A stretch of DNA of 38,769 nucleotides from Polyangiaceae bacterium (GTDB lineage: Bacteria > Myxococcota_A > Polyangia > Polyangiales > Polyangiaceae). The translations under genes were made by a program, and so were the position numbers. The notes under the pieces were generated by a model. The model was not told the DNA's origin. It did not search any database and saw nothing but the letters and a program-made list of their open reading frames with translations. Positions 6,365 through 34,723 of the stretch are shown here, piece by piece. Position 1 is the first letter of the stretch. Every line of letters starts with the position of its first letter. Location of the stretch: contig JAJDAH010000358.1 of assembly GCA_029261965.1 (NCBI GenBank), positions 1 through 38,769 of the forward strand. Reading direction: 5' to 3'.

Positions 6365-7875
6365 TCTTCGCTCACGCCGACTACGAACGAGAACGAAAGT
6401 TCTCCGCCGACGTCGTCGTCATCGGCACGGGCGCTGGTGGGGCAAGCGCAGGCGCGGAGCTCGCCGCCGCCGGCCACGACGTGGTGTTCGTGGAAGAAGG
6501 CGGCCACCATCCGACGTCGAGCTTCAATCCGTACATCACCGAGACCATTCCGCGCCTCTATCGCGACGCGAGCGCGACGGTCATTGCGGGCAAGCCACCC
6601 ATTCCGTTCGTCGAAGGCCGATGCGTCGGCGGCTCGACCGTCATCAACGGAGGCATGGCCTACCGGCCTCCGGATCGCGTGCTCGCCGACTGGGAAAAGA
6701 TAGCGCCCGAGCTCGGCGCTCGCGCGCTGGAGCCATACTTCGAATCAGTGGAAAACCGCGTGTCCGTCGCCCCGCAACATCCGGACTCGATCGGCGAGGA
6801 CAGCCGGATGATGCAAGCGGGGGCCAAGCGGATGGGCTGGAGCTTCACGGTCAATCAGCGCAATCAACGCTCCTGCGTCGGGTCGAACAACTGCACCATG
6901 GGCTGCCCGACTGGCGCCAAGCAGTCGACTCTCGTCACCTACATCCCGGACGCCCTCGCCGCAGGGGCCCGATGTTTGACCGAGGTTCGTGTCGAACGGC
7001 TTCTGATCGAAGGCGGCCGCGCAGTGGGCGTCGTGGGGCGATCCGTAAACCCCCGCACACGCAAGCTCGATCGCCCGGTCGAGGTCCGCGCACGCGCGGT
7101 CATCGTGGCTTGCGGCGCCATCCAAACTCCGCTCTTGCTCCTCCGACAGAAACTCGGCCGGCCGGGCCGCCAGCTCGGCAAGAACTTCACGTGCCATCCG
7201 AACGCCAAGGTGCTTCCCATCTACCCGAGCGAGCAGTGCATCGAAGGCTGGAAAGGTGTGAGCCAAGCTGCGCAGATTCGCGAGTTCCACGACGAGGGCA
7301 TTCTCTTCGCCGAGAACTTCGTGCCGCCCGGAGTCATGGCCGCCTACATGCCCTTTCACGGCGACGAGATTTGGGAGGCGATGAGCAACTACAACCAGTC
7401 GATCATGAGCGGTGTGCTCGTGGAGGATTCGACCACCGGCCGAGTCAGCCGTCTTCCGTTCGGAGCGCCACTCATCCGCTACGACATCACCAAGCTCGAC
7501 CACGAGAGATTCCTCCGGGGGATCAAGCTGCTCGCCGAAATGCATTTCGTCATGGGCGCGGACCGCGTGATCTTGCCGTTCTTCAACCAGCACCTCGCGC
7601 GCAGCGTCGACGACCTGAAGAAAATCGACGTGCTACAGACCTGCCCGAGCACGCTCGAGCTGTTCACGCCGCACCTGATGGGCACCGCGCGCATGGGGTC
7701 GGACGCAAGAGGCTCAGTCGTCGACGTGAACGGTGAGCTCTGGGATCTGCCTGGGTGCTACATCGCGGACGCCAGTCTGTTTCCCACCGCGATCGGTGTG
7801 AATCCGCAAATCACGATCATGGCTTTGGCCAAAAGAGTCGCTCAGCACATGTCACTGGCCAAACAGGCGGCTTGA
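6361..7875 (+). CDS. GMC oxidoreductase, fatty-alcohol-oxidase-like
   Basis: 504 aa from the ATG at 6361; a longer in-frame extension upstream only shadows the preceding gene. The FAD-binding motif is GTGAGG (residues 22-27), followed by EEGG (45-48) and GRCVGGSTVINGG (87-98). A Cys-containing stretch CVGSNNCTMGCPTGAKQST (172-190) and the C-terminal HLMGTARMG (His438), FPTAIGVNPQITIM (Asn481) are typical of long-chain alcohol oxidases and cholesterol-oxidase-like GMC enzymes. It probably oxidises a long-chain alcohol or sterol-like substrate to an aldehyde or ketone. The operon with a FadR-like regulator favours a fatty alcohol. It ends convergent to the DUF2236 gene. Confidence 0.88.
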   Translation: MIFAHADYERERKFSADVVVIGTGAGGASAGAELAAAGHDVVFVEEGGHHPTSSFNPYITETIPRLYRDASATVIAGKPPIPFVEGRCVGGSTVINGGMAYRPPDRVLADWEKIAPELGARALEPYFESVENRVSVAPQHPDSIGEDSRMMQAGAKRMGWSFTVNQRNQRSCVGSNNCTMGCPTGAKQSTLVTYIPDALAAGARCLTEVRVERLLIEGGRAVGVVGRSVNPRTRKLDRPVEVRARAVIVACGAIQTPLLLLRQKLGRPGRQLGKNFTCHPNAKVLPIYPSEQCIEGWKGVSQAAQIREFHDEGILFAENFVPPGVMAAYMPFHGDEIWEAMSNYNQSIMSGVLVEDSTTGRVSRLPFGAPLIRYDITKLDHERFLRGIKLLAEMHFVMGADRVILPFFNQHLARSVDDLKKIDVLQTCPSTLELFTPHLMGTARMGSDARGSVVDVNGELWDLPGCYIADASLFPTAIGVNPQITIMALAKRVAQHMSLAKQAA

Positions 7876-21695: not shown

Positions 21696-24050
21696 GTGAG
21701 CGACGCGGAGCCGCGAAAGGACGGCGAGCCGGGACAGCGGGTCGCGGCTTTTCCCGGTGACCTGCCAGTCGACTTCGAGCTCGCCCAGAGTCACAAGCTC
21801 TCGCAGAAAGAGTACGACTTCCTGTGCCAGTCGCTCGGCCGAACGCCGAGTTATTCCGAGCTCGGCGTGGCAAGCGTCATGTGGAGTGAGCACTGCTCGT
21901 ACAAAAGCTCACGCGTGCACCTCAAACGGCTGCCGACCGAGGGCGAGCTGGTCATCCAGGGGCCCGGCGAAAACGCCGGCGTGGTCGACATCGGCGACGG
22001 GTTCGCAGCCGTCTTCAAGATGGAATCGCACAACCACCCCTCCTACATCGAGCCGTATCAAGGTGCGGCAACCGGTGTCGGGGGCATCCTGAGGGACGTG
22101 TTCACCATGGGCGCGCGCCCGGTGGCTGCGCTCAACTCGTTGAGATTCGGCAGACCGGACCATCCCAAAACCCCGTCGCTCGTTCGCGGCGTCGTCGCCG
22201 GGATCGGTGGCTACGGCAATTGCTTCGGCGTGCCGACCGTCGGCGGCGAGGTTCAATTCGACGAGAGCTACGATGGCAACATCCTCGTCAACGCCTTCGT
22301 GTGCGGAGTCGCGCGCACCGATCGGATTTTCTACGGCAAGGCCGGCGAAGCCGGTAACCCCATCCTCTACGTCGGAGCCAAGACCGGGCGCGACGGCATC
22401 CATGGCGCGACGATGGCGAGCGACGAGTTCACCGAGGAGGGCCCGAGCCAGCGACCCACCGTTCAGGTCGGCGACCCATTTCTCGGCAAGCTCCTGGTCG
22501 AAGCGTGCTTGGAGATCTTCGGCGAGGACTTGCTCATCGGCATCCAGGACATGGGCGCCGCCGGCTTGACCTCTTCCAGCGTGGAGATGGCCGGCCGCGG
22601 GGACGCGGGCGTGGAGATCGATCTCGACCTCGTGCCGAGGCGGGCCGCGGGGCTGACGCCCTACGAGCTCTTACTCAGCGAGTCACAGGAACGAATGCTG
22701 CTCGTCGCGAAACCCGGATGCGAAGCGCGTGTGCTCGAAATCTGCGACAAATGGGACATCGATGCCGCCGTCATCGGCAAGGTGACTGACACCGGTCGAT
22801 GGGTGATCAAAGCGACGCCCGACTACGACCCGACCGTGGACGACGTCGCGCCTGGTCCGCCAATCACCGTGTGCGACCTCCCGGTCGCGGTGCTGACCGA
22901 CGAAGCTCCAAAGTACGACCGGCCGCAGGCGACCGACGAGTCTCTGGCGGGCCTACACGCGTTCGACGTGTCGACCCTCGGCGTCCCGACAGATTGGGCG
23001 CGCGAGCTCCTCGCACTCTTGGCTTCGCCGAACGTCGGGTCCAGAAGATGGATTTGGCGCCAGTACGACCACATCGTGCGGGGCGGCACGGGAGTCCGAC
23101 CGGGCTCGGATGCGGGGGTCGTGCGCGTCAAGTGCGAGCGCGACGGCAAAGCGGTCGACAAGCACTTGGCGTTCTCCGTCGACTGCAACGGGCGGTTCGT
23201 GCAGCTCGATGCACGAATTGGCGGCGCAATGGCCGTAGCAGAAGTTTGCCGCAACCTCGCGTGCGCCGGCGCCCGCCCGATCGGGGTCACCGACTGCCTG
23301 AACTTCGGCAATCCCGAGAACCCGCCGGTCATGCGACAATTCTCCGAAGCGGTCGACGGTATCGCCGACGCTTGTCGCGCGCTCGACGCCCCAATCGTCG
23401 GGGGCAACGTCAGCCTCTACAACGAAACCGACGGCCGGGCGATCCTGCCAACGCCGACGGTGGCTGCCGTCGGGCTCATTTCGGACGAGAAGAGCATCGT
23501 GCGATCGTTTTTTACCGCCGACGTGACGATCCTCATGCTGGGCGAAGCGGCCGGTGCCGGGCTCGGCGGATCCGAGTGGGTGCACCAGAAGACCGGCAAG
23601 GTCGTCGGCCCTGCGCCGCAAATCGACCTCGAAGCCGAGGTGCGGCTGCAGCACCTGCTTGTCGCCCTCGCCGAGCAGGGCGCGGTCACATCGATGCACG
23701 ATTTGTCCGAAGGCGGGTTGCTCGTCGCGCTCGCCGAGTGCTGCACCGGAGTGGGCGACGAAACGCCTATCGGCGTCACGAGCGGCATGGTCGGGGCAAC
23801 GGTGGACGTGCCGTCGGCTTCACCCGAGGTGCTCGTTGGCGAAGCGCCAAGTCGGGTGATCGTCGGGACGGCCGACCCGGATCGCGTCGAAGAGCTCGCC
23901 CGCGCGGCGGGTGTGCCAGTGCGGCGTTTGGGACGAACCGGCGGCGACGAGCTCGTCGTCCGTGCCGGGGAAAACGAAGTCTGTCGGGTCCCTCTCGTGG
24001 AAGCCCAGCGGGCACGCGAGAGCTGCCTCGAGCCGATCGTCGGAGCCTGA
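21696..24050 (+). CDS. purL: Phosphoribosylformylglycinamidine synthase subunit PurL
   Basis: 784 aa, the size of the small bacterial PurL that works with PurS and PurQ. It makes FGAM from FGAR, ATP and glutamine-derived ammonia in purine synthesis. Family motifs: [94 protein letters not shown] and [15 protein letters not shown]. The start is a GTG abutting the TGA of the small membrane ORF and lacks a strong Shine-Dalgarno. purS and purQ are not in the window. The gene ends just before a 17-bp tandem repeat. Confidence 0.96.
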
Positions 24051-24064
24051 TCGAGAGCAGGCGC

Positions 24065-24182
24065 GGCAGCGGTCAGGCGATGGCAGCGGTCAGGCGATGG
24101 CAGCGGTCAGGCGATGGCAGCGGTCAGGCGATGGCAGCGGTCAGGCGATGGCAGCGGTCAGGCGATGGCAGTATCAGGCGAC
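24065..24182. repeat. 17-bp tandem repeat between convergent genes
   Basis: Six exact copies of GGCAGCGGTCAGGCGAT run from 24065 to 24166, followed by a diverged seventh copy (24167-24182, GGCAGTATCAGGCGAC). The last copy contains the stop codon (TCA at 24174-24176 on this strand) and the final codons of the minus-strand NamZ-like gene, so the unit appears to have been amplified from that gene's 3' end. Each unit also places a TGA on the minus strand in the same register as the stop. The array fills almost the entire purL-namZ gap and is likely length-variable. Confidence 0.97.
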
Positions 24183-25388
24183 GGCAGCGATGGCGCGAGC
24201 CTCCGCCTCTCGAACCGTCTGCGGCCATTCGTCCCCCACTGGGGCGAGAATTTCCACGACGTCATCGGGCCCAGCGCCGCTCATCAGCGCTTGGCGGGCT
24301 TCGGTCGAACCGGTGAGCAAGTCGAAGGCGGGAATTTCAGTCTCGAACTCGTAGGGCTCGGTTCGGAAGGCGAAATCTTCGGGCGCTTGGGCACGCGCCA
24401 GCGCGACCAGGGACAAGTAGGTCCGAACGGGGCGGAAGAGCGCCGGGTCCGTGACGTGCAACATCACGCCACTGCAAATCTGCCCCGCAAACTTTTCAAA
24501 GGTCGGCTTGAACGAGACCGGCCGCGCGATGCATCCGGACAAGTCGGTTTCGCGGAGCGCGGTGGCCAATGCCACACCATCGAGAAACGGCGCCCCCACC
24601 ATCTGGAACGGCGCGGTGGTGCCTCGTCCTTCGGACAGATTGGTGCCTTCGAGCAAACAGCCGCCCGGGTAGACGAGAGCGGTTTCCAAGGTCGGCATGT
24701 TCGGTGACGGCATGACAAATGGCCGACCCCAAGCGCCCGCTGTCCGGAGCCGCTCCCAGCCAAGAGTTGGCACGACCGACAGCACGCCATCTCGGCCGAG
24801 CGGTTTTTCGTCTCGTGCCATGAAGTACGCAAGAATTTCACCCACCGTCATCGAGTGCCGGATCGGCAAAGGCTCGAGGCCGACGAAAGACAGGAATCCG
24901 TCCTTCTGCGGCGCCCCTTCGATCAACCCGGCGTCTCCGGAGATCGGATTGGCGCGATCCAAGACGACGACATGAACTCCAGCTTCAGCAGCGACGCGGG
25001 CGACCAACAGCGCCGTCCAAATGTAGGTGTAATAACGGCTGCCGACGTCGGCTAAGTCGATGAACAGGAGCTCGAGCCCGTCGAGATCTTCCGGACGAGG
25101 ACTGAGCGACTCCTCGTTGTCGCCATACAGGCTGATGACGCGGGGACCGTCGGATTCCGACGCAGCGACAGTGACCGGTTCCTCGGCCTGCGCCACTGCA
25201 TCGAGTCCGTGCTCGGGGCCGAACACGACTCGGGGAACAGCTCCGAGTGATTCGAGCACTTCGCGCGTGCTGTGGCCGAGGCGGTCGACCGCGGCGGGAT
25301 GAGTGAGCAGCCCGAATTCCGCACCGCGAATGCGCTTTCGAAGGCTACTGAAGGGGCCCGAAGCCAGCTGGTCTAGTCCGCAAAGCAT
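24174..25388 (-). CDS. NamZ-like (DUF1343) exo-beta-N-acetylmuramidase
   Basis: 404 aa. DUF1343 proteins include NamZ, which removes MurNAc from the non-reducing end of peptidoglycan fragments. Characteristic motifs are VVFGPEHGLDAVAQ, ISLYGDNEE, LELLFIDLADVGSRYYTYIWT, VVVLDRANPISGD, LPIRHSMTVGEI and MPSPNMPTLETALVYPGGCLLEGTNLSEGRGTT. I see no clear signal peptide (MLCGLDQLASGPFSSL), so it may act in the cytoplasm on recycled muropeptides, or the true start may differ. Its final codons and stop lie in the last copy of the 17-bp tandem repeat, so repeat slippage could alter its C-terminus. Confidence 0.88.
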   Translation of the reverse strand: MLCGLDQLASGPFSSLRKRIRGAEFGLLTHPAAVDRLGHSTREVLESLGAVPRVVFGPEHGLDAVAQAEEPVTVAASESDGPRVISLYGDNEESLSPRPEDLDGLELLFIDLADVGSRYYTYIWTALLVARVAAEAGVHVVVLDRANPISGDAGLIEGAPQKDGFLSFVGLEPLPIRHSMTVGEILAYFMARDEKPLGRDGVLSVVPTLGWERLRTAGAWGRPFVMPSPNMPTLETALVYPGGCLLEGTNLSEGRGTTAPFQMVGAPFLDGVALATALRETDLSGCIARPVSFKPTFEKFAGQICSGVMLHVTDPALFRPVRTYLSLVALARAQAPEDFAFRTEPYEFETEIPAFDLLTGSTEARQALMSGAGPDDVVEILAPVGDEWPQTVREAEARAIAAVA

Positions 25389-27474: not shown

Positions 27475-28893
27475 TCAGCCCCCGCGAGCCTCTCGCATCG
27501 TCGCTTCGACATCCCCAGGGTGCTTCGGAATCGAACGGCTCAACACGTCGTTTCCTTCAGCGGTGACGAGCACGTCGTCCTCGATGCGTATTCCACGGAC
27601 GTCGGAGAACTTGTCGAGCTCATCACGATTCAGGGCATCGACGAACGGCGCCACCCGCTCGCTGTCGTCGAGGATCGCCGGAATGCGGTAAAAACCCGGC
27701 TCGACGGTCACCGCCATGCCGGCCTCGAGATCGCGGTCGAGACGCAGAAAGCGATCGGTGGCGCTCGTGCTCCGTTTTCGGCCGGCGGCGTATCCGGCGC
27801 GATCCCCGAGGTCTTCCATGTCGTGCACATCGAGGCCGAGTAGATGGCCGACGCCATGGGGAAAAAACAACGCAGCCGCACCGCGCTCGAATAGCTCCTG
27901 GGCATCGCCACGAAGAATGCCGAGCTCGACGAGCCCGCTCACCAGGCGCCGGCCCGCAGTGTGGTGCACGTCGCGGTAGCTCGCCCCGGGCTGGACGGCG
28001 TCGATGGCGGCGCGCTGCACGTCGAGAACCAGCTCGTAGATGGTGCGCTGGGTACTCGTGTAGTGGCCCGACACGGGCCACGTTCGGGTGATGTCGGCGG
28101 CCCAGCCTTCGGGCGTTTCGGCGCCGACGTCCGCGAGCACCAGATCGGCTGGTTCCAACACGCCGTCGTGTCGTTCGTTGTGCAAGACCTCTCCGTGCCC
28201 CGTCACGATCGAGCCGTAGGAACAGGTCATTCCGTTCGCGATGATCGCCTGCTCCATCGCTGCGCGAACGACTGCCTCGCGAATCGCTGGCCGCGTTGCC
28301 GCCATTCCGCCGCGGTGAGCGAGCTCGGTGACGGCAACCGCCTGTCGAATTTGCGCCGCCGCTGCAGCGTCGTGACGGAGCCGTAGCTCGACCATGACGT
28401 CGGCGAGCTTCGCGTCCGCCCCATCGAGGTCGTCTCCGGACCCGCTGTCGACGTCGCGACCGAGTCGCTCGCTGAGCCATTCGGCGGTATCACCGTCTTG
28501 CGGCGGCAGGGTGGCGAGCTCGGGGCTAGCGCTCAGCTCGTCGATCGGCCGCACGGCGATCTCGAGCTCTTTTTCGAGGTCGGCAAGCGAAGACTGGGGG
28601 CCGGCCCAGAGCACCGCTTCGGCGTCCGGGGGCGGCACGTAGAGCACCGCGTTTCCGCCCCCGGTCGACAGGACCGCGCCTTCGAGCGACCTGCCGACCA
28701 AGTACAGAAAATGACTCTCGGCGCGAAACGCATGTTGGTTGGCCGGGAAGTTTCGCGGGCGACAAAAGCCGGCGACGAAAAGCGCGGGCTCCGGGTACCG
28801 GTCGAGCAGCCGACGTCGACGCTCGGAAAAAACTCTGGCCGCGCTCGGCGTCGGCCAGAGCGTGGAATCGCTGCCGTTTTGGCTTGCAGTCAT
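27475..28893 (-). CDS. pepP: Xaa-Pro aminopeptidase (aminopeptidase P)
   Basis: 472 aa. Cleaves the N-terminal residue preceding proline using two Mn2+ ions. The N-terminal creatinase-like domain (NFPANQHAFRAESHFLYLVG) is followed by the pita-bread M24B domain with the full metal set: Asp255 (LADVGAE), Asp267 (ADITRTWPVSG), His350 (FFPHGVGHLLGLDVHD), Glu398 (VEPGFY) and Glu438 (GIRIEDD). Length and order match bacterial PepP. It is transcribed away from the bufferin-like cluster, with 192 bp between the two starts. Confidence 0.95.
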   Translation of the reverse strand: MTASQNGSDSTLWPTPSAARVFSERRRRLLDRYPEPALFVAGFCRPRNFPANQHAFRAESHFLYLVGRSLEGAVLSTGGGNAVLYVPPPDAEAVLWAGPQSSLADLEKELEIAVRPIDELSASPELATLPPQDGDTAEWLSERLGRDVDSGSGDDLDGADAKLADVMVELRLRHDAAAAAQIRQAVAVTELAHRGGMAATRPAIREAVVRAAMEQAIIANGMTCSYGSIVTGHGEVLHNERHDGVLEPADLVLADVGAETPEGWAADITRTWPVSGHYTSTQRTIYELVLDVQRAAIDAVQPGASYRDVHHTAGRRLVSGLVELGILRGDAQELFERGAAALFFPHGVGHLLGLDVHDMEDLGDRAGYAAGRKRSTSATDRFLRLDRDLEAGMAVTVEPGFYRIPAILDDSERVAPFVDALNRDELDKFSDVRGIRIEDDVLVTAEGNDVLSRSIPKHPGDVEATMREARGG

Positions 28894-28985
28894 GGGTACG
28901 GGTGTCCGGTAGGTGGGATCGGGTGAGCCGAATTTGACGCCTGGGGAGTCGCAGCGTCTAGTGTCGCCTCGGCCTTTTTTGGGCT

Positions 28986-29011
28986 GAAACCGAAAGTGAT
29001 TTCGGGCGTAA
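28986..29011 (+). promoter_or_regulatory. Possible ECF-sigma promoter of the bufferin precursor gene
   Basis: GAAACC (28986-28991) and CGTAA (29007-29011) are separated by 15 bp, similar in shape to ECF promoters (AAC-type -35 and CGT-type -10). A perfect hairpin or operator, CCGAAA-gtga-TTTCGG at 28990-29005, overlaps the -35 edge and the spacer. The predicted leader to the ATG at 29086 is about 70 nt. ECF control of bufferin operons is known in Caulobacter (SigF). The assignment here is motif-based only. Confidence 0.4.
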
Positions 29012-29085
29012 GCTCGAAGTCAGGCCCCGGCCGCGCCGGTTCGTGCGCCCGCCGGCCCATGCAAACCAATCAGGAGAGAAACTAG

Positions 29086-29340
29086 ATGGCATTTTCAGTT
29101 GGAAAATCGATGTTGGTCGTGGCTTCGGCCGGACTCATGCTTGGTGCGGCAACGGGATGCGCCGAAGGGGCGCCCGACGCCATGTCCCCCGCCGGCGCCG
29201 CCGCCGAGGGTAAAGACTGCTGCAAAGGCATGAACGAGTGCAAAGGCAAGGGCGGCTGCGCGGTCGAAGGTGCCAACGACTGCGGTGGCAAGAACGAGTG
29301 CAAAGCCAAAGGCGGCTGCAACGCCCACTGCCCGAAGTAG
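29086..29340 (+). CDS. Bufferin-like Cys-rich RiPP precursor
   Basis: 84 aa with AGGAG well placed before the ATG. A signal peptide (MAFSVGKSMLVVASAGLMLG) precedes AATGC, so Cys25 could be lipidated or signal peptidase I could cut nearby. The mature part is Cys/Lys/Gly-rich, with cysteines at 45, 46, 52, 58, 66, 72, 78 and 82. Two copies of a motif, NECKGKGGC (50-58) and NECKAKGGC (70-78), lie exactly 20 residues apart. Bufferin precursors (BufA) are exported peptides whose cysteines are turned into thiooxazole-type groups by MNIO enzymes to bind copper. The two genes downstream encode such an enzyme and its partner. Confidence 0.82.
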   Translation: MAFSVGKSMLVVASAGLMLGAATGCAEGAPDAMSPAGAAAEGKDCCKGMNECKGKGGCAVEGANDCGGKNECKAKGGCNAHCPK

Positions 29341-29360
29341 CTCGTCAAACCGACGAAGAG

Positions 29361-29395
29361 GGCCCGCGCGCTTTGCCGCGCGGGCCTCTTTTTTT
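29361..29395 (+). terminator. Intrinsic terminator between precursor and enzyme genes
   Basis: A perfect 10-bp stem, GGCCCGCGCG (29361-29370) with CGCGCGGGCC (29377-29386), a 6-nt loop, and seven T at 29389-29395. It lies 21 nt after the precursor stop and 62 nt before the MNIO gene. It should end most transcripts after the precursor, with limited read-through to the enzymes. Confidence 0.92.
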
Positions 29396-29457
29396 CGCGA
29401 ACCCTTCGGAGACGCAGCCGGCCGGCCGGCAATCACGCGTGACATACTGCTGCCCAC

Positions 29458-30471
29458 ATGACTGAAGCTCGCCTCGGGTGTCCGGATCTCGGTGTTGGCG
29501 TGGGCCTCCGAGTGCCGCACTACCGACACATTCTCGACCATCGCCCGGCAGTCGATTTTTTCGAGATCATCAGCGAAAATTTCATGGTCGATGGAGGCAA
29601 ACCCATCTACCACCTCGAGCGCGTGCTCGAGACCTATCGAGTGATCCAGCACGGCGTGTCGCTCGGAATCGGCGGTCCCGAAGAGCCGGACACGGCCTAC
29701 CTCGAACGCCTGAAGCGCCTCGTCGACAAGGTCCAACCCGCCTGGCTGAGCGACCATTTCTGCTGGTGTTCCGCAGACGGCGTGAATCTCCACGATCTGC
29801 TGCCGCTGCCCTACACCGAAGAGGCGATCGAGATCGTCGTAGAGCGAGCGAAGAAGATCCAAGACTTTCTCGGGGTGAGATTCGCGCTCGAGAACACATC
29901 GACCTATCTGAACTACACCTCGAGCGAGATGCCCGAATGGGAGTTCATCGGTCGAATCGCCGAGCAGGCAGACATCGGGCTGATGTTCGACGTCAACAAC
30001 ATCTACGTCTCGGCCTACAACCACGGCTTCGATCCCCTCGAGTTCGTGCGGAACGTTCCCCACGAGCGAATCGTGCAGATCCATCTCGCCGGGCACATGA
30101 ACGTGGGCACGCACATCATCGACACCCATTCCGGGCACGTGATCGACCCGGTTTACGACATCTATCGCGAAACGATCGCCCAGGCGGGCGCCGTACCAAC
30201 GCTCATCGAATGGGACGACGACATCCCCGAGTTCTCGCTGCTCGTAGCGGAAGCCGAAAAAGCCCGGGACATTCGGAGCGATGCTCTCGAGCTGAAAGCA
30301 CGCCGCGCTGCCGGAAAAGCCTCCGCAACGCCTGACTGGCCTTGGGCACGAGCCATAGAGGAACGCGGCCCCGCCGACGCGCAGCTCGAGGGCGAAACCC
30401 ACGCGGGCACCGTCCAGGGCGGCTGGAAACAGGGCGGTCCTCGCGAGAGCGAATCCACCGCCGCCGAGTAG
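29458..30471 (+). CDS. bufB: MNIO-family (DUF692) bufferin maturase, BufB-like
   Basis: 337 aa. DUF692/MNIO enzymes are TIM-barrel multinuclear iron oxidases that modify cysteines in RiPP precursors (MbnB, BufB). Visible ligand-type residues: His65 (VIQHGVSLGIGG), DHFCW (99-103), Glu145 (ALENTSTYL), Asp178 and the Asn pair in MFDVNNIYVSA, His209 (VQIHLAGH), Asp222 and His224 (IDTHSGHVID), and Glu251 (LIEWDDDIP). A charged ~60-residue C-terminal extension is unusual in length. The product would be a modified Cys side chain on the upstream precursor. It follows the terminator and precedes the DUF2063 gene by 11 nt. Confidence 0.93.
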   Translation: MTEARLGCPDLGVGVGLRVPHYRHILDHRPAVDFFEIISENFMVDGGKPIYHLERVLETYRVIQHGVSLGIGGPEEPDTAYLERLKRLVDKVQPAWLSDHFCWCSADGVNLHDLLPLPYTEEAIEIVVERAKKIQDFLGVRFALENTSTYLNYTSSEMPEWEFIGRIAEQADIGLMFDVNNIYVSAYNHGFDPLEFVRNVPHERIVQIHLAGHMNVGTHIIDTHSGHVIDPVYDIYRETIAQAGAVPTLIEWDDDIPEFSLLVAEAEKARDIRSDALELKARRAAGKASATPDWPWARAIEERGPADAQLEGETHAGTVQGGWKQGGPRESESTAAE

Positions 30472-30482
30472 GAGACGGGTGC

Positions 30483-31298
30483 ATGGGCGAGCTCGCCGAT
30501 CTCCAACACTGGATGGCCCGCGTCCTGAGGACGCGCCGGGCGCTCGCCAAAGACGAGCACATCACCCGCGAGGCCACAGAGCGGCTCACGGGCAACGACC
30601 GTTTGCGACCGGTCGAACAAGCCGAGATCTACCGGGAGCAGTTTTGGCTTCGGCACACGAGCGCGCTGCTCGAAGACTACCCGGGACTCAGCGGAGTGAT
30701 CGGCCAGGGCGACTGGGAACGCTTGGTCGAGGAATACCTGACGAGCCATGCACCGGACAGTTGGACCTTGCGCGATCTCGGAAACCGGATGACCGAGCAC
30801 GTGGAGAGCTGCGCTTGGCTGCCGCACCGCCAGCTCTGCATCGACATGGCCCGACTCGAATGGAGCTACACGGAGCTGTTCGACGCGCGGGACGCTCCCC
30901 CGCTCGACCCCAACAAGCTCGGCAGCATCCCGGAGGCGGCTTGGGAAACCGCCCTCATCGTCCTCAACCCAGCGCTTCGACTGCTGCGTACGGAATACCC
31001 CGTGGCGGAACTCCGACGGCGGCTCCGTGAAGGTGAAGCGTCGGCGCTGATTCCCGACGCGCAATCGCAGAACCTCGTGCTGTTCCGATCGAGAAAACGC
31101 AGCCTTCACTACGATGTCGTGGGCGACGGCGCGTTCGCCCTGCTCGAAGCGCTCCGGGACGGTCTACCCTTGGTGCCGGCATGCGAACGGGCGGTGGAGC
31201 GAGCGCCGTCCGAGGCCAAGGCCGTGGAGGTCGGCGTCGGCCAGTGGTTCCAAGAGTGGGGACGGCTCGGTTGGATCGTCGACGTCGACGTCAAATGA
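30483..31298 (+). CDS. bufC: DUF2063 partner protein, BufC-like
   Basis: 271 aa from the ATG at 30483, with GGAG upstream; the longer in-frame extension overlaps the bufB end. DUF2063 proteins (named DNA-binding, but better known as RiPP recognition partners of MNIO enzymes) show an N-terminal helical domain with RLRPVEQAEIYREQFWLRH..ALLEDYPGL..VIG and a central segment HRQLCIDMARLEWSYTELFDARD. They recruit the precursor leader to the MNIO enzyme. The C-terminal half (LVLFRSRKRSLHYDVV...GAFALLEALRDG) resembles a winged-helix region. Its last 8 bp overlap the end of the convergent acyl-CoA dehydrogenase gene. Confidence 0.88.
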   Translation: MGELADLQHWMARVLRTRRALAKDEHITREATERLTGNDRLRPVEQAEIYREQFWLRHTSALLEDYPGLSGVIGQGDWERLVEEYLTSHAPDSWTLRDLGNRMTEHVESCAWLPHRQLCIDMARLEWSYTELFDARDAPPLDPNKLGSIPEAAWETALIVLNPALRLLRTEYPVAELRRRLREGEASALIPDAQSQNLVLFRSRKRSLHYDVVGDGAFALLEALRDGLPLVPACERAVERAPSEAKAVEVGVGQWFQEWGRLGWIVDVDVK

Positions 31299-33003
31299 CG
31301 TCGAAGGGATAGCCCCGATCGGTGTAAGCGCGCGCGGCGATGCGCTTTCGAAGCTCGTCGTCGTTATGCTCGAGCGCTTGCAAGTTTCTTCGCATGCGGC
31401 TCTGAGCCGCCGTGGCAAACATCGTCGTGAGGTCGATCTCGCGCCGAGCGCCTTCTTCCCCGCGGCGTTCGATCGCGCTCGAAGTTCGTGCGATGCACGC
31501 GGCGAGGGCGTACAAATCGATGGCGACGTTCGCCACGCGCATTTGTACGTACTGCATCTCGCTGATTTCCTTGCCATGCTCGCGCAGCGCCCGCTCCACA
31601 CCCTGAGCGAGCTCCTCGGTGGCCGCCTCGAAGATGACTGCCTCACGACTCAACGCCGGATGAGCGCGTGACATTCGCTCGCGACGAAGCGCCTCCTTGA
31701 CTTTCCTCACCGCGAACTCCCGAAGTAGACCGAACCCCTTGACCGGCTCTCGCATCGAAGCGACGACGCCTTCGAGGCGCTTGCCCGGCCCTTGCATGCC
31801 CGCGAGCGCGACAAAGCAGCGGAGAATCTCGTTCGTGCTTTCGATCACGAACATGCTCCTGGCGTCGCGTAGCCTGCGTTCGAACTCGAACGGCTTGGCG
31901 TAGCCGCTGCCCGCGGCCACCGAGAGCGACTCGTCGACGATCCGCCATAACGCTTCGGAGCCGGCGACGCGGCAAATGGCGCTTTCGAGCGAGTAGTCCT
32001 CGACGCGCTGATCGACGAGCCCGGCGGTCAGGTACGTCATCGAGCTCATCGCGTAGCTGTCGGCCATCATCCGGGCGATCTTGTCTTTGATGATTGGAAA
32101 CTCAGCGATGGCGCGCCCGAAGCTGCGGCGCGAGCTCACCCGCTCGATGGCGCCGTTGAGCAGAGTTCGCGATTGCCCGACCATCGACGCGCTGAGCCCC
32201 AGACGAGCCATGGAAAACACCTCCATGGCGACGCCGAAGCCCTTGCCCGGCTTCGAGACGAGATTCTCGATGGGAACGCGAACGTCCTCGAGCTCGAGGT
32301 GCGACACGGGGACGCCCCGGATGCCGAGGGTTTCCACTCGCTCGTCCGTCGAGACGCCCGGCCCGCGCTCGACGAGCAGCGTGGCCATTCGTGGCTTCGA
32401 ACCGACCTCGGCTCGACTCGTTCGCGCAAACACCGTGATGAGGTCGGCTTCACGACCGTTGGTCACCCACTTCTTCGCGCCGTTGACCACGTAGGTTTTA
32501 CCGTCTTCGGTCAGCTCGGCGAAAGTGCGCATCATGCCCGAGTCGCTCCCGGAGCCGTCTTCGGCCAGAGCGAACGCGGCGGTCATCTCCCCCGTAGCGA
32601 GCCTCGGAAGGTAGCGCTTCTTCTGTTCGTCGTCGCCGAACAGAAGAATGGGGCTGAGGCCGCACTCGTGCGCGGTCAACAGCGCAGCGATCGACGGATC
32701 GAAGCTCGCGATGCTTTGCATCACCCGCGCATGTCCGGTCATCGACAATCCCGCGCCGCCGTATTCTTGCGGGATCTTGAGCCCGAACAAACCGAGCTCG
32801 GCGAGCCGGCGGACGATCGGCTCGCCGAGCTCGCCCTCCGCGTCGATCTTGATCGAATCGACCTCGTCCTCCAAGAAGCGTTCGACCTTCTCGACGATCG
32901 CCCGAGTGGTCTGCCGCTCCCCTTCGGGAACTTCCGGGTAGGGGAAGATCAAGTCTTCGGCGACGACGCCGAAGAACAACGCTTTCATGAAGCTGCCTTC
33001 CAT
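31291..33003 (-). CDS. Acyl-CoA dehydrogenase with long C-terminal domain
   Basis: 570 aa from the ATG at 33003 (AGGAG 10 nt upstream; a TTG at 33012 is the alternative). It oxidises acyl-CoA to trans-2-enoyl-CoA with FAD. Motifs: LFGLKIPQEYGGAGLSMTGH, AFALAEDGSGSDSGMM, VNGAKKWVTNG, RRSFGRAIAEFPIIKDKIARM and FVIESTNEILRC with the catalytic Glu. The ~170-residue C-terminal extension after GMQGPG recalls VLCAD/ACAD9-type enzymes acting on long chains. The preceding gene on this strand is the PgpH-like gene, ending 23 nt upstream. Confidence 0.93.
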   Translation of the reverse strand: MEGSFMKALFFGVVAEDLIFPYPEVPEGERQTTRAIVEKVERFLEDEVDSIKIDAEGELGEPIVRRLAELGLFGLKIPQEYGGAGLSMTGHARVMQSIASFDPSIAALLTAHECGLSPILLFGDDEQKKRYLPRLATGEMTAAFALAEDGSGSDSGMMRTFAELTEDGKTYVVNGAKKWVTNGREADLITVFARTSRAEVGSKPRMATLLVERGPGVSTDERVETLGIRGVPVSHLELEDVRVPIENLVSKPGKGFGVAMEVFSMARLGLSASMVGQSRTLLNGAIERVSSRRSFGRAIAEFPIIKDKIARMMADSYAMSSMTYLTAGLVDQRVEDYSLESAICRVAGSEALWRIVDESLSVAAGSGYAKPFEFERRLRDARSMFVIESTNEILRCFVALAGMQGPGKRLEGVVASMREPVKGFGLLREFAVRKVKEALRRERMSRAHPALSREAVIFEAATEELAQGVERALREHGKEISEMQYVQMRVANVAIDLYALAACIARTSSAIERRGEEGARREIDLTTMFATAAQSRMRRNLQALEHNDDELRKRIAARAYTDRGYPFDVI

Positions 33004-33025: not shown

Positions 33026-34723
33026 TCATGGTTTTTTCCGGACGCCAGTGGGCTCGGTCACTTCGATCTCCGGGGACGACGCGCGGCCGACGGCATCCGA
33101 AGGCACACCGAACTCCTCTGCGCGTTTGGCTTGCCACGGATACTTGATGCGGTGGTGGTGCATGTTCACGAGCGTCGCGGCCATTCGATTGACGAGGATC
33201 CTCAAGTCCTCGATGACGAGCCCCGATTCGTCGAGCTGCCCGGCTTTGAGCTTGGTGAAGAGAATCCGCTGAATCATCAGCTCGAACTCCTCGAGATCGG
33301 GCTCGTCGACGGTGCGCGACGCGGCTTCTATCGAATCCACCAGCATCAAAATCGCCGTTTCTTTCGTCTGGGGTTTCATGCCCGGGTACCGAAACGCCGA
33401 TTCGTCGAGCTCCTTCGGGTTGCCCTGCTGTTGGCACTTGTTCCAAAAAAACTCGACGAGCTGTGTTCCGTGATGGGTATAGGCGAACTCCACGACGGGC
33501 TCGGGGATACCGCCGTCGCGAAGAATCTTCGCCCCCATCACGACGTGCGCCATGATCGCGTCGGCGCTGACGTCTGGTTCTAGGTCGTCGTGAGGCGAAC
33601 GCTCGTCGGGTCCGAGGTTCTCGACGAAATACTTGGCTTGAGTCGTCTTACCCAGGTCGTGATAGTAGGCGCCCACGCGCGTCAGGAGCGCATCGGCGCC
33701 GATGGCGCTCGACGCCTGCTCCGCCAGGTTGGCCATGGCGCGCGAGTGCTCCCACGAGCCAGGAGCTTCGCGCGACATTTTTTGAAGCAGCGGTTGCTCG
33801 AGATCCGTCAGGTCCAGCAATCGCTCCCGCGGCACGCTTCCCAAGAGGCGTGCCGCCGGCGACCGTAGCGCGGCGCCGATCAGCCCCGAGCCCGCGGCGC
33901 CCCCGAAGGTCGCCAGCAAGGTCGACGACGCGGCGCTCTGAAGGTCCGCCATGACGTCGAAGCGCCCCTCGACGGTGACCATGATGGCGACGAGGAGCGA
34001 CGCCGCACTCACTCCGGCCAATAGTCCCGACAAGATCATGTGTCTCGAACGCTTTCGATCCAGGTACAGGAGCGTCGCGGAGAGACCGACGGACAGCATC
34101 ACCGTCAAGAAAACGAGGTCGAAGCGCAGAAGCGATGCGATGACGAAAGACAGAACGACCGTCACGACAAAAGCCGTGCGTCGATCGAAACTGGCGGCGA
34201 CCCACAATGGAACCGCAGCGATCGGGATCCAGTAGGCCGGCAGCGCCGTGAACAAGAGCAGGCCCTTGGACAATACCGCGAGCAGCCCGATCGCGATGAA
34301 CAGCCCAATCTGCACACGGAGTAATCGCAGGCGGTTTTGTCCAAACTTCCGTAAGTAGGACGTCAACGCCATCGAGAGAGTGAAGAAGATCACCCAGAGC
34401 CCGAGGAGCCTCGGAAGCGTGTGCCGAGCCGCCTCGAAGCTCACCGCCATCTGGTGAAGGCGGTCTTGCTGGTCGAGGACCGTGCCGCGCGGGACCAGGA
34501 TGCGCTGGTGCTCGAATCGGACGTCGGCCCGCCCGGTGTCGGGGTTGCGCACGAGGCGCGGGCCGTAGGGCACCCGCAGGGTCGTCGGCGCCGGCTTCGC
34601 CCACGCTGGTTTCCACGGCGGCACGTAGCCGTCACCCGCCTGGATGGCGGTGAGCAACAGGGCCGCAACGAGGCTCATTACCAGCCCAGCGATCGGTCCC
34701 GCTCTGACGCGAGTGCGCAACAT
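33026..34723 (-). CDS. PgpH-like membrane HD phosphodiesterase (c-di-AMP)
   Basis: 565 aa. TM1 is at ~10-27, then a short external region of ~75 residues, then six or more helices (LLGLWVIFFTLSMALTSYL; LFIAIGLLAVLSKGLLLF; TAFVVTVVLSFVIASLL; LVFLTVMLSVGLSATLLYL), then a cytoplasmic HD domain: SWEHSRAM (His326), YYHDLGKTTQAKYF (His355-Asp356), AHVVMGAKIL (His393), YTHHGT (His417-418) and LVDSIEAASR (Asp463). This is the 7TMR-HDED layout of PgpH, which hydrolyses c-di-AMP to pApA. The external domain is much shorter than in Listeria PgpH (>200 aa). It is divergent from cdaA, so one locus makes and degrades the signal. Confidence 0.88.
   Translation of the reverse strand: MLRTRVRAGPIAGLVMSLVAALLLTAIQAGDGYVPPWKPAWAKPAPTTLRVPYGPRLVRNPDTGRADVRFEHQRILVPRGTVLDQQDRLHQMAVSFEAARHTLPRLLGLWVIFFTLSMALTSYLRKFGQNRLRLLRVQIGLFIAIGLLAVLSKGLLLFTALPAYWIPIAAVPLWVAASFDRRTAFVVTVVLSFVIASLLRFDLVFLTVMLSVGLSATLLYLDRKRSRHMILSGLLAGVSAASLLVAIMVTVEGRFDVMADLQSAASSTLLATFGGAAGSGLIGAALRSPAARLLGSVPRERLLDLTDLEQPLLQKMSREAPGSWEHSRAMANLAEQASSAIGADALLTRVGAYYHDLGKTTQAKYFVENLGPDERSPHDDLEPDVSADAIMAHVVMGAKILRDGGIPEPVVEFAYTHHGTQLVEFFWNKCQQQGNPKELDESAFRYPGMKPQTKETAILMLVDSIEAASRTVDEPDLEEFELMIQRILFTKLKAGQLDESGLVIEDLRILVNRMAATLVNMHHHRIKYPWQAKRAEEFGVPSDAVGRASSPEIEVTEPTGVRKKP

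Follow-up and report, generated by a model that had tools for sequence, protein, structure and literature searches.

A bufferin-2-type operon with an eight-cysteine lipoprotein-like precursor and a tailed maturase in a Polyangiaceae genome

Genes and features of the operon

The locus described here is a three-gene operon for a ribosomally synthesised and post-translationally modified peptide (RiPP) on contig JAJDAH010000358.1 of a Polyangiaceae bacterium (assembly GCA_029261965.1, 9.59 Mb, completeness 96.4%; contig C288 in our numbering), and the whole 38,769 nucleotides of this contig are referred to as the window. The list of open reading frames (ORFs) and profile searches of the window placed three genes on the plus strand, in the order of a bufA-like precursor of 84 amino acids (29086–29340), bufB for an MNIO (DUF692) bufferin maturase of 337 amino acids (29458–30471) and bufC for a partner of 271 amino acids (30483–31298) having DUF2063 and a part of the RiPP recognition element (RRE) type (PME type 1). 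This confirmed the original prediction, in which an exported Cys-rich peptide, an MNIO and a DUF2063 partner had been read in that order on one strand. A bufABC order whose last gene encodes a PME-type 1 (DUF2063-RRE) partner is the one given for bufferin-2 (Buf2) clusters in PMC12452194, the papers cited here being represented throughout by excerpts, and at gene level the locus is firmly a bufferin cluster, of Buf2 or Cys-Lys captophorin type and not BufA1-like. The enzyme belongs to a clade of 20 genomes, 17 of which have the precursor and MNIO genes side by side, and the arrangement is therefore beyond chance. The cluster type itself is known; what is new here is the eight-Cys lipoprotein-like core of the precursor, the GWxQGGPRE tail of the enzyme and the proposed trans-acting control of sigma-F/NrsF type.

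The enzyme BufB was matched by the NF050167 MNIO_BufB model with 343 bits over a cut-off of 310 (residues 13–270) and by PF05114 with 350.6 bits, and its predicted fold (mean predicted local distance difference test score, pLDDT, 87.8) matches 3bww, TglH and MbnB; the likeness to TglH consists of a sequence and fold match in PDB only. Membership of the enzyme in the methanobactin, ChrH and HvfB families was ruled out because all scores remained under their cut-offs, with 59.7 bits against 325 for the methanobactin MbnB model, 51.9 against 600 for ChrH and 255 against 360 for HvfB (PRK05409). The HvfC model NF050145 likewise gave 48.7 bits against 142, and BufB was far under the cut-off of the ApyH model. 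In the tree the MNIO is surrounded by enzymes which in many cases have a Buf2-type precursor encoded at the same locus, and it does not lie outside the RiPP-modifying clades; profile, tree and predicted fold together uphold the earlier reading of the pair as one of bufferin kind. Eight residues of BufB (H65, H100, E145, D178, H209, D222, H224 and E251) are identical in all 57 aligned enzymes, and we take them to be the MNIO metal ligand set. Residue D254 aligns with the Asp that is tied to Cys-Lys specificity in PMC13097082 (the FonB-Phe250 position) and is Asp in 39 of the 57 rows, the correspondence being drawn through an alignment with 3bww (ERDF vs EWDD). The precursor has the Cys-Lys motifs C46K, C52K and C72K, so that both marks of a Cys-Lys captophorin in that paper, the Asp at this aligned position and several Cys-Lys motifs, are present.

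The likely start of bufC is the ATG at 30483, which gives the 271 residues stated above, the mechanical ORF opening already at 30342. The protein was matched by PF09836 (DUF2063) with 50.2 bits over a cut-off of 27.2, and its model (mean pLDDT 95.7) has 3dee (NGO1945) and TglI as best PDB matches, as expected for a PME-type 1 partner. BufB and BufC are fused in one frame in relatives, at L201 (G145:C79 547–2379, minus strand) and L033 (1486–3201), and a working complex of the two proteins would fit these natural fusions. By eye, the MNIO frame of the alphaproteobacterial loci L106, L124 and L136 also reads on into a DUF2063-like stretch.

The precursor consists of MAFSVGKSMLVVASAGLMLGAATGC, a short linker and then DCCKGMNECKGKGGC-AVEGAN-DCGGKNECKAKGGCNAHCPK, and it contains nine Cys (25, 45, 46, 52, 58, 66, 72, 78 and 82). 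Buf2, or Buf_6/12Cys, bufferins are defined by six or twelve conserved Cys and an N-terminal Sec signal peptide (PMC12452194); the core of the present peptide, ending in CNAHCPK, has the usual six of Buf2 type and two flanking ones, C45 before the first and C82 after the last, which may pair as a disulfide by analogy with the outer Cys of Buf1. The peptide had been thought not to match BufA1, and this was upheld, as it is a divergent Buf2-type peptide. The profile check that had been suggested for both genes divided: the MNIO passed the NF050167 cut-off as given above, and the precursor did not pass that of NF050166 BufA2, reaching 24.1 bits against 60 (E 3e-5), which is a point against its assignment to Buf2. 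An acidobacterial six-Cys precursor of Buf2 type beside an MNIO scored 36.6 bits, also under 60, from which it appears that the cut-off omits further subtypes too; a KGW-type precursor at C53 of the same genome scored 77.3 bits, over the cut-off. The present peptide was therefore placed as a divergent Buf2 or Cys-Lys captophorin peptide and not as a member of NF050166. The EGKCG repeat of the oxazolin type does not occur in its 84 residues.

The N-terminus of the precursor is signal-peptide-like with a lipobox-like AATG-C at Cys25, judged by eye against the lipobox pattern, and Cys25 is almost invariant among 16 aligned precursors; the precursor looks like a lipoprotein with Cys25 as the candidate lipidation site. 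Lipoprotein signals are predicted in about 16% of Buf2 peptides (PMC12452194), and lipidated bufferins are noted by prediction in PMC12636315, which describes DybA and NedA, RiPP-lipoprotein hybrids resembling the present case in having an MNIO-modified precursor with a lipobox. DybA is of ChrH type and NedA of oxazolin type, and lipidated Buf2 peptides are not among the products shown in the excerpt of that paper. The clade supplies candidates at sequence level for lipidated Buf2 peptides in myxobacteria.

Between the precursor and MNIO genes lies a terminator-like hairpin (29360–29387, plus strand) of 11 pairs, 10 of them G-C, followed by C and seven T, with a folding energy of −27.4 kcal/mol; one of 30 shuffles was as low. 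Among 66 comparable bufA-bufB intergenic stretches of several phyla, 34 were at or below −20 kcal/mol when 3.1 were expected; the set was confined to loci with a recognised precursor and to gaps of 30 to 260 bases, and it includes at least two duplicate pairs (L020/L085 and L027/L115). The hairpin may act by partial termination, which would keep the precursor above the enzyme. It counts against this reading that the other 32 stretches, several clade members included, have no hairpin at −20 kcal/mol or below. Such an element may set the ratio of precursor to enzyme in Buf2 operons of several phyla.

Putative promoter and candidate sigma factor

A promoter-like site, GAAACC-N15-CGTA, is located at 28986–29010 on the plus strand, 75 bases 5′ of the precursor start codon, and we take it to be a putative promoter of the extracytoplasmic function (ECF) sigma type. 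The first base of this site coincides with the start coordinate of the system in the original prediction. Alignment of the upstream regions of the clade operons shows GAAACC-N15 to 17-CGTA, and no sigma-70 promoter was found within 28700–31500. When searched as GAAAC-N15 to 18-CGTA, the site was present upstream of 11 of the 15 linked clade precursors (0.06 expected from dinucleotide shuffles, with one count per distinct precursor) and of 9 of 21 other Polyangiales precursors (0.04 expected), and upstream of none of 31 precursor rows from elsewhere, which comprise 30 rows of other phyla and L089 of Polyangiaceae. The count left out L192, L183 (no precursor found) and L185 (same core as L015), together with L066, L070 and L178 among the unlinked rows and L083 and L177 among the others. 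Sites of the source genome also precede the KGW-type BufA2 gene and two lipoprotein-like genes at C53, a DUF3179 gene next to a further MNIO locus (C253) and a DoxX gene (C442).

The places of the motif were compared with those of sigma-70 region 2 in three relatives (G020, G115 and G169). In both G020 and G115 a site is immediately followed by an ECF gene, the two proteins being 67% identical, and behind each of them is an NrsF-family gene (PF06532, 51.4 bits in G020 and 45.7 bits in G115, cut-off 26.8). The source genome has 74 sigma-region-4 places, 62 of which were covered by the 61 loci taken for comparison, and among these 61 loci the sigma factor of G020 is matched best, at 71%, by C313:33598–34254. 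This gene has GAAACT-N16-CGTA at 34264–34289, nine bases upstream of its mechanical ORF start, and it is followed by an NrsF-family gene (PF06532, 34.5 bits against 26.8) and then by a thioredoxin-family gene. The marks of a sigma-F/NrsF-type regulon, an ECF gene beside an NrsF-family anti-sigma gene and a motif in common with the bufferin operons, are hence present at the level of sequence, and we propose that the Buf2 operon is run by this unlinked sigma-F/NrsF-type pair.

Another ECF gene, at C341, also has a site upstream in the source genome and was rejected as the regulator. Of 23 other genomes searched, only 4 have a relative of it at E 1e-39 or better (42–50% identity), with weaker ones in a further 9, and a scan of 25 other loci showed the site upstream in none of them; the C313 pair was preferred.

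Several results weigh against control from this site by the C313 pair. Four of the 15 linked clade precursors are without it, and since the clade precursor L192 (G151), which was filtered out of the count, has none either, 11 of 16 is the fuller figure; the unlinked precursors have it in one of six cases (0.01 expected) and are without it in five, and the motif scan of the source genome listed no GAAACC site near its own unlinked precursor at C23. In G169, compared by eye, no sigma gene follows a site among the matches listed. The strict motif occurs at 55 places in the source genome and 38 for the reversed control, and in the three relatives at 12 vs 11, 18 vs 9 and 10 vs 15; as these counts are near the control, it is only their position that lends the sites weight, and a regulon list for the whole genome from the motif alone was dropped. 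For CorE, a copper-dependent sigma factor, the excerpt describes a −35 box containing AAC and a −10 box containing a G, spaced by 16–18 residues; this description would also fit the site and leaves room for another sigma factor.

It is accordingly conceivable, if rather unlikely, that the operon is switched not by the C313 pair but by another regulator, for instance a copper-dependent ECF sigma factor of CorE type, the more so with 74 sigma-region-4 places in the source genome. This is opposed by the sites beside sigma genes in G020 and G115, which belong to the NrsF-linked sigma, and by the nearest relative of that sigma in the source genome, which has a site directly upstream. As for the metal-sensing role that had been suggested for the system, nothing speaks in favour of it beyond the putative sigma-factor promoter.

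Control by an unlinked sigma-F/NrsF-type pair would explain, for Polyangiales, the absence of sigma and NrsF genes from Buf2 clusters, such genes being reported in Buf1 and not in Buf2 clusters (PMC12452194), and it makes the control of Buf2 clusters that have no sigma gene of their own a testable question. No paper on such sigma control of bufferin operons in myxobacteria was found in the literature covered, most subscription journals lying outside it. The Caulobacter operons CC2907-2905 and CC3254-3257 are presumably bufferin operons. Both are driven by the Caulobacter sigma-F, which is held by NrsF, from GTAACC-N16-CGAA (PMC3511200); they are paralogous, each with an NGO1945-related gene (CC2905 and CC3256 are likened to NGO1945) and one with DoxX (CC3257). 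The proposed system is like that regulon in its ECF sigma, its negative regulator of NrsF kind and the sigma gene's own copy of the promoter, and it differs in the motif, which is GAAACC-N15 to 17-CGTA here as deduced from sequence alone.

The enzyme tail and its clade

A charged extension of about 60 residues had been noticed at the C-terminus of the MNIO, and it is real, with 67 residues of BufB lying past the end of the NF050167 match. Its informative part is GWxQGGPRE, which belongs to one clade and is present here as GGWKQGGPRE (BufB residues 321–330, 30418–30447, plus strand). In a survey of 183 genomes of the order, an MNIO was matched at E 1e-75 or below in 82 and the precursor profile at 1e-6 or below in 62. 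GGPRE was found near the MNIO C-terminus in all 20 clade genomes and the W in 18 of them, with GW.QGGPRE kept at the 80% level and a preceding linker which varies in length and sequence; among 107 other MNIO rows (residues 270–360, some rows being duplicates) GGPRE was not found. When a tree was built from residues 1–275, one branch, with a Shimodaira-Hasegawa-like approximate likelihood ratio test (SH-aLRT) value of 99, set the tailed enzymes (21 rows, one of them a duplicate) apart from all the others. These 20 genomes also take the first 20 places in the ranking by the precursor profile (A3), and in each the highest-scoring precursor has the ending CNx[HN]CP[KT]. The ranking favours the clade, since A3 was made mostly with clade precursors, to which a few unlinked ones were added; the endings were read from the sequence.

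The operon is bounded on one side by a divergent M24 aminopeptidase-P-type gene (27475–28893, minus strand, identified by Pfam), which is a conserved clade neighbour outside the pathway, and on the other by a convergent acyl-CoA dehydrogenase gene. The M24 gene adjoins bufB in all 8 named clade loci, which are metagenome-assembled genomes labelled Polyangia, Polyangiaceae, Sorangium sp., Myxococcales or Deltaproteobacteria, and in none of 10 related non-clade loci, and so the clade operon appears to be vertically inherited.

Residues 307–337 of BufB have pLDDT under 50 and are predicted to be disordered, and docking of the tail onto its own barrel was not predicted in the BufB model, in whose alignment nine rows carry the tail. 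Being disordered on the lone enzyme, the tail, if active, would probably act on BufC or the substrate, and we suggest that it probably binds BufC or the CNAHCPK region at the precursor C-terminus. Its single origin and predicted disorder would also suit a neutral remnant of one clade that binds neither substrate nor partner, and this we consider quite improbable, as a neutral remnant would hardly have kept GGPRE in every one of the 20 sequences next to a variable linker. The binding role has points against it as well. The tail has a single origin, so that its pairing with the precursor ending amounts to one independent instance, and similar endings occur without a tailed enzyme in L080 (CNLRCDK), G145 (CNMHCKK) and G146 (CNMHCPQ), the MNIO of G145 being an untailed MNIO-BufC fusion and G146 having no MNIO at 1e-75. 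At L080 (Polyangiaceae Bin8.16) and L197 (G175) an eight-Cys precursor ending in CNLRCDK, with a second short Cys-rich ORF close by, lies beside an untailed MNIO. A clade-specific tail of this kind gives a handle on how an MNIO pair picks its Sec-exported substrates before export.

A second, unlinked eight-Cys precursor of 109 amino acids is encoded in the same genome (L202, G000:C23 5273–5605, minus strand), with no MNIO nearby within the stretches read there. By eye, it is followed by a lipoprotein-like ORF resembling a thioredoxin/TlpA relative. In 3 of the 20 clade genomes (G008, G168 and G006) the precursor and the enzyme are on different contigs, and one enzyme pair may serve several precursors, including the one at C23. 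The unlinked and detached precursors would also suit a peptide that is exported unmodified or partly modified as a metallothionein-like Cys-rich lipoprotein, with the MNIO pair acting chiefly on other precursors, and PMC12452194 permits unmodified precursors. We regard this as very improbable, since bufA adjoins bufB in the remaining 17 clade genomes and the tail and the precursor ending co-occur in the same 20 genomes.

The tail and the proposed trans control together permit a wider and still speculative picture that is rather unlikely as a whole. The maturase of this clade may have gained GWxQGGPRE as a recognition tail which pairs it with lipid-anchored eight-Cys CNx[HN]CP[KT] precursors, some of them encoded far away, under a trans-acting sigma-F/NrsF-type switch. 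The result would be a tail-guided, multi-substrate and membrane-anchored system in which a single enzyme pair supplies several lipidated metal-binding RiPPs that cover the envelope.

Proposed mechanism and related loci

It is likely, judging from the genes, that the product of the operon is a Cys-rich, copper-binding envelope peptide held by a lipid anchor. When metal or redox stress reaches the envelope, the NrsF-like anti-sigma would let go the unlinked ECF sigma factor, which would begin transcription at GAAACC-N15-CGTA; the hairpin would halt most transcripts past bufA, and because of this the precursor would be in excess over the enzyme. BufC would present the precursor and BufB would oxidise the Cys-Lys sites (C46, C52, C72 and perhaps others) to 5-thiooxazoles before Sec export. 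This chemistry is borrowed from the class description in PMC13097082, in which captophorins carry 5-thiooxazoles on Cys, absorb at about 305 nm and bind copper. The exported peptide would be lipidated at C25 and would sequester copper. It would probably be retained in the outer membrane because Ala follows the lipid Cys, the residue after this Cys being the one by which lipoproteins are sorted.

The same RiPP chemistry could have the purpose of protection from oxidative, thiol or other-metal stress, the peptide being a general thiol and metal sink in a sigma-F-like regulon. Among the apparent regulon partners are a DoxX protein as well as thioredoxin-family proteins and lipoproteins encoded at C53 and after the sigma gene, and these would suit this purpose; Caulobacter sigma-F answers chromate and cadmium (PMC3511200), roles beyond copper are proposed and MerC fusions described in PMC12452194, and the related Microbulbifer MmrA-C proteins are reported as undetected even under added copper. 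Copper binding is reported on the other hand for Buf1, oxazolin, fontiphorin and bulbicupramide, and no gene seen at these loci suggests another metal, for which reasons we hold such a purpose to be unlikely and copper sequestration to be the better account.

The operon resembles Buf2 (Buf_6/12Cys; Antoine et al. 2025, PMC12452194) in its signal-peptide-type precursor followed by an MNIO and a DUF2063-RRE partner and in the six-Cys core, and differs from it, as far as the excerpt describes Buf2, by having eight core-region Cys in place of 6 or 12, a tail on the MNIO, an operon without DoxX and a sigma/NrsF pair that apparently acts from elsewhere in the genome. With the Cys-Lys captophorins of PMC13097082 it has in common the MNIO-PME1 pair, the Cys-Lys motifs of the precursor and the Asp at the substrate-linked position; the excerpt of that paper makes no mention of a tail or extra Cys, and the Polyangiaceae system is known from its genes.

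Other loci were noticed in the source genome. At L203 (G000:C53, 416–5911) the KGW-type BufA2 (77 bits), which has a lipobox, is accompanied by a DUF255 thioredoxin-type protein, a methyltransferase and two lipoprotein-like ORFs, one with two CxxCH motifs and the other with 17 Cys; the 9.9-kb contig bears four GAAACC-N-CGTA sites. L008 (G000:C442) and L007 (G000:C18) are MNIO clusters with DoxX-like genes and short few-Cys precursors (SGCKGKSGC... and CGGPNGCG-like motifs), and the C442 contig also encodes a sigma factor with 64% identity to that of G020. L011 (G000:C340) has a precursor (6373–6657) with an NHLP leader (TIGR03793, 65.6 bits) and the end SGGSGANCPLCGAG directly before an MNIO (6642–7568), followed by an ORF of 87 amino acids (7561–7824); the MNIO is ChrH-like with 277 bits, under the cut-off of 600, and this is possibly a ChrH-type cluster with an NHLP leader. 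Elsewhere in the window, a 17-base tandem repeat of 7.4 copies (GGCAGCGGTCAGGCGAT) lies at 24065–24189, just past a long ORF ending at 24050 which by eye resembles purL.

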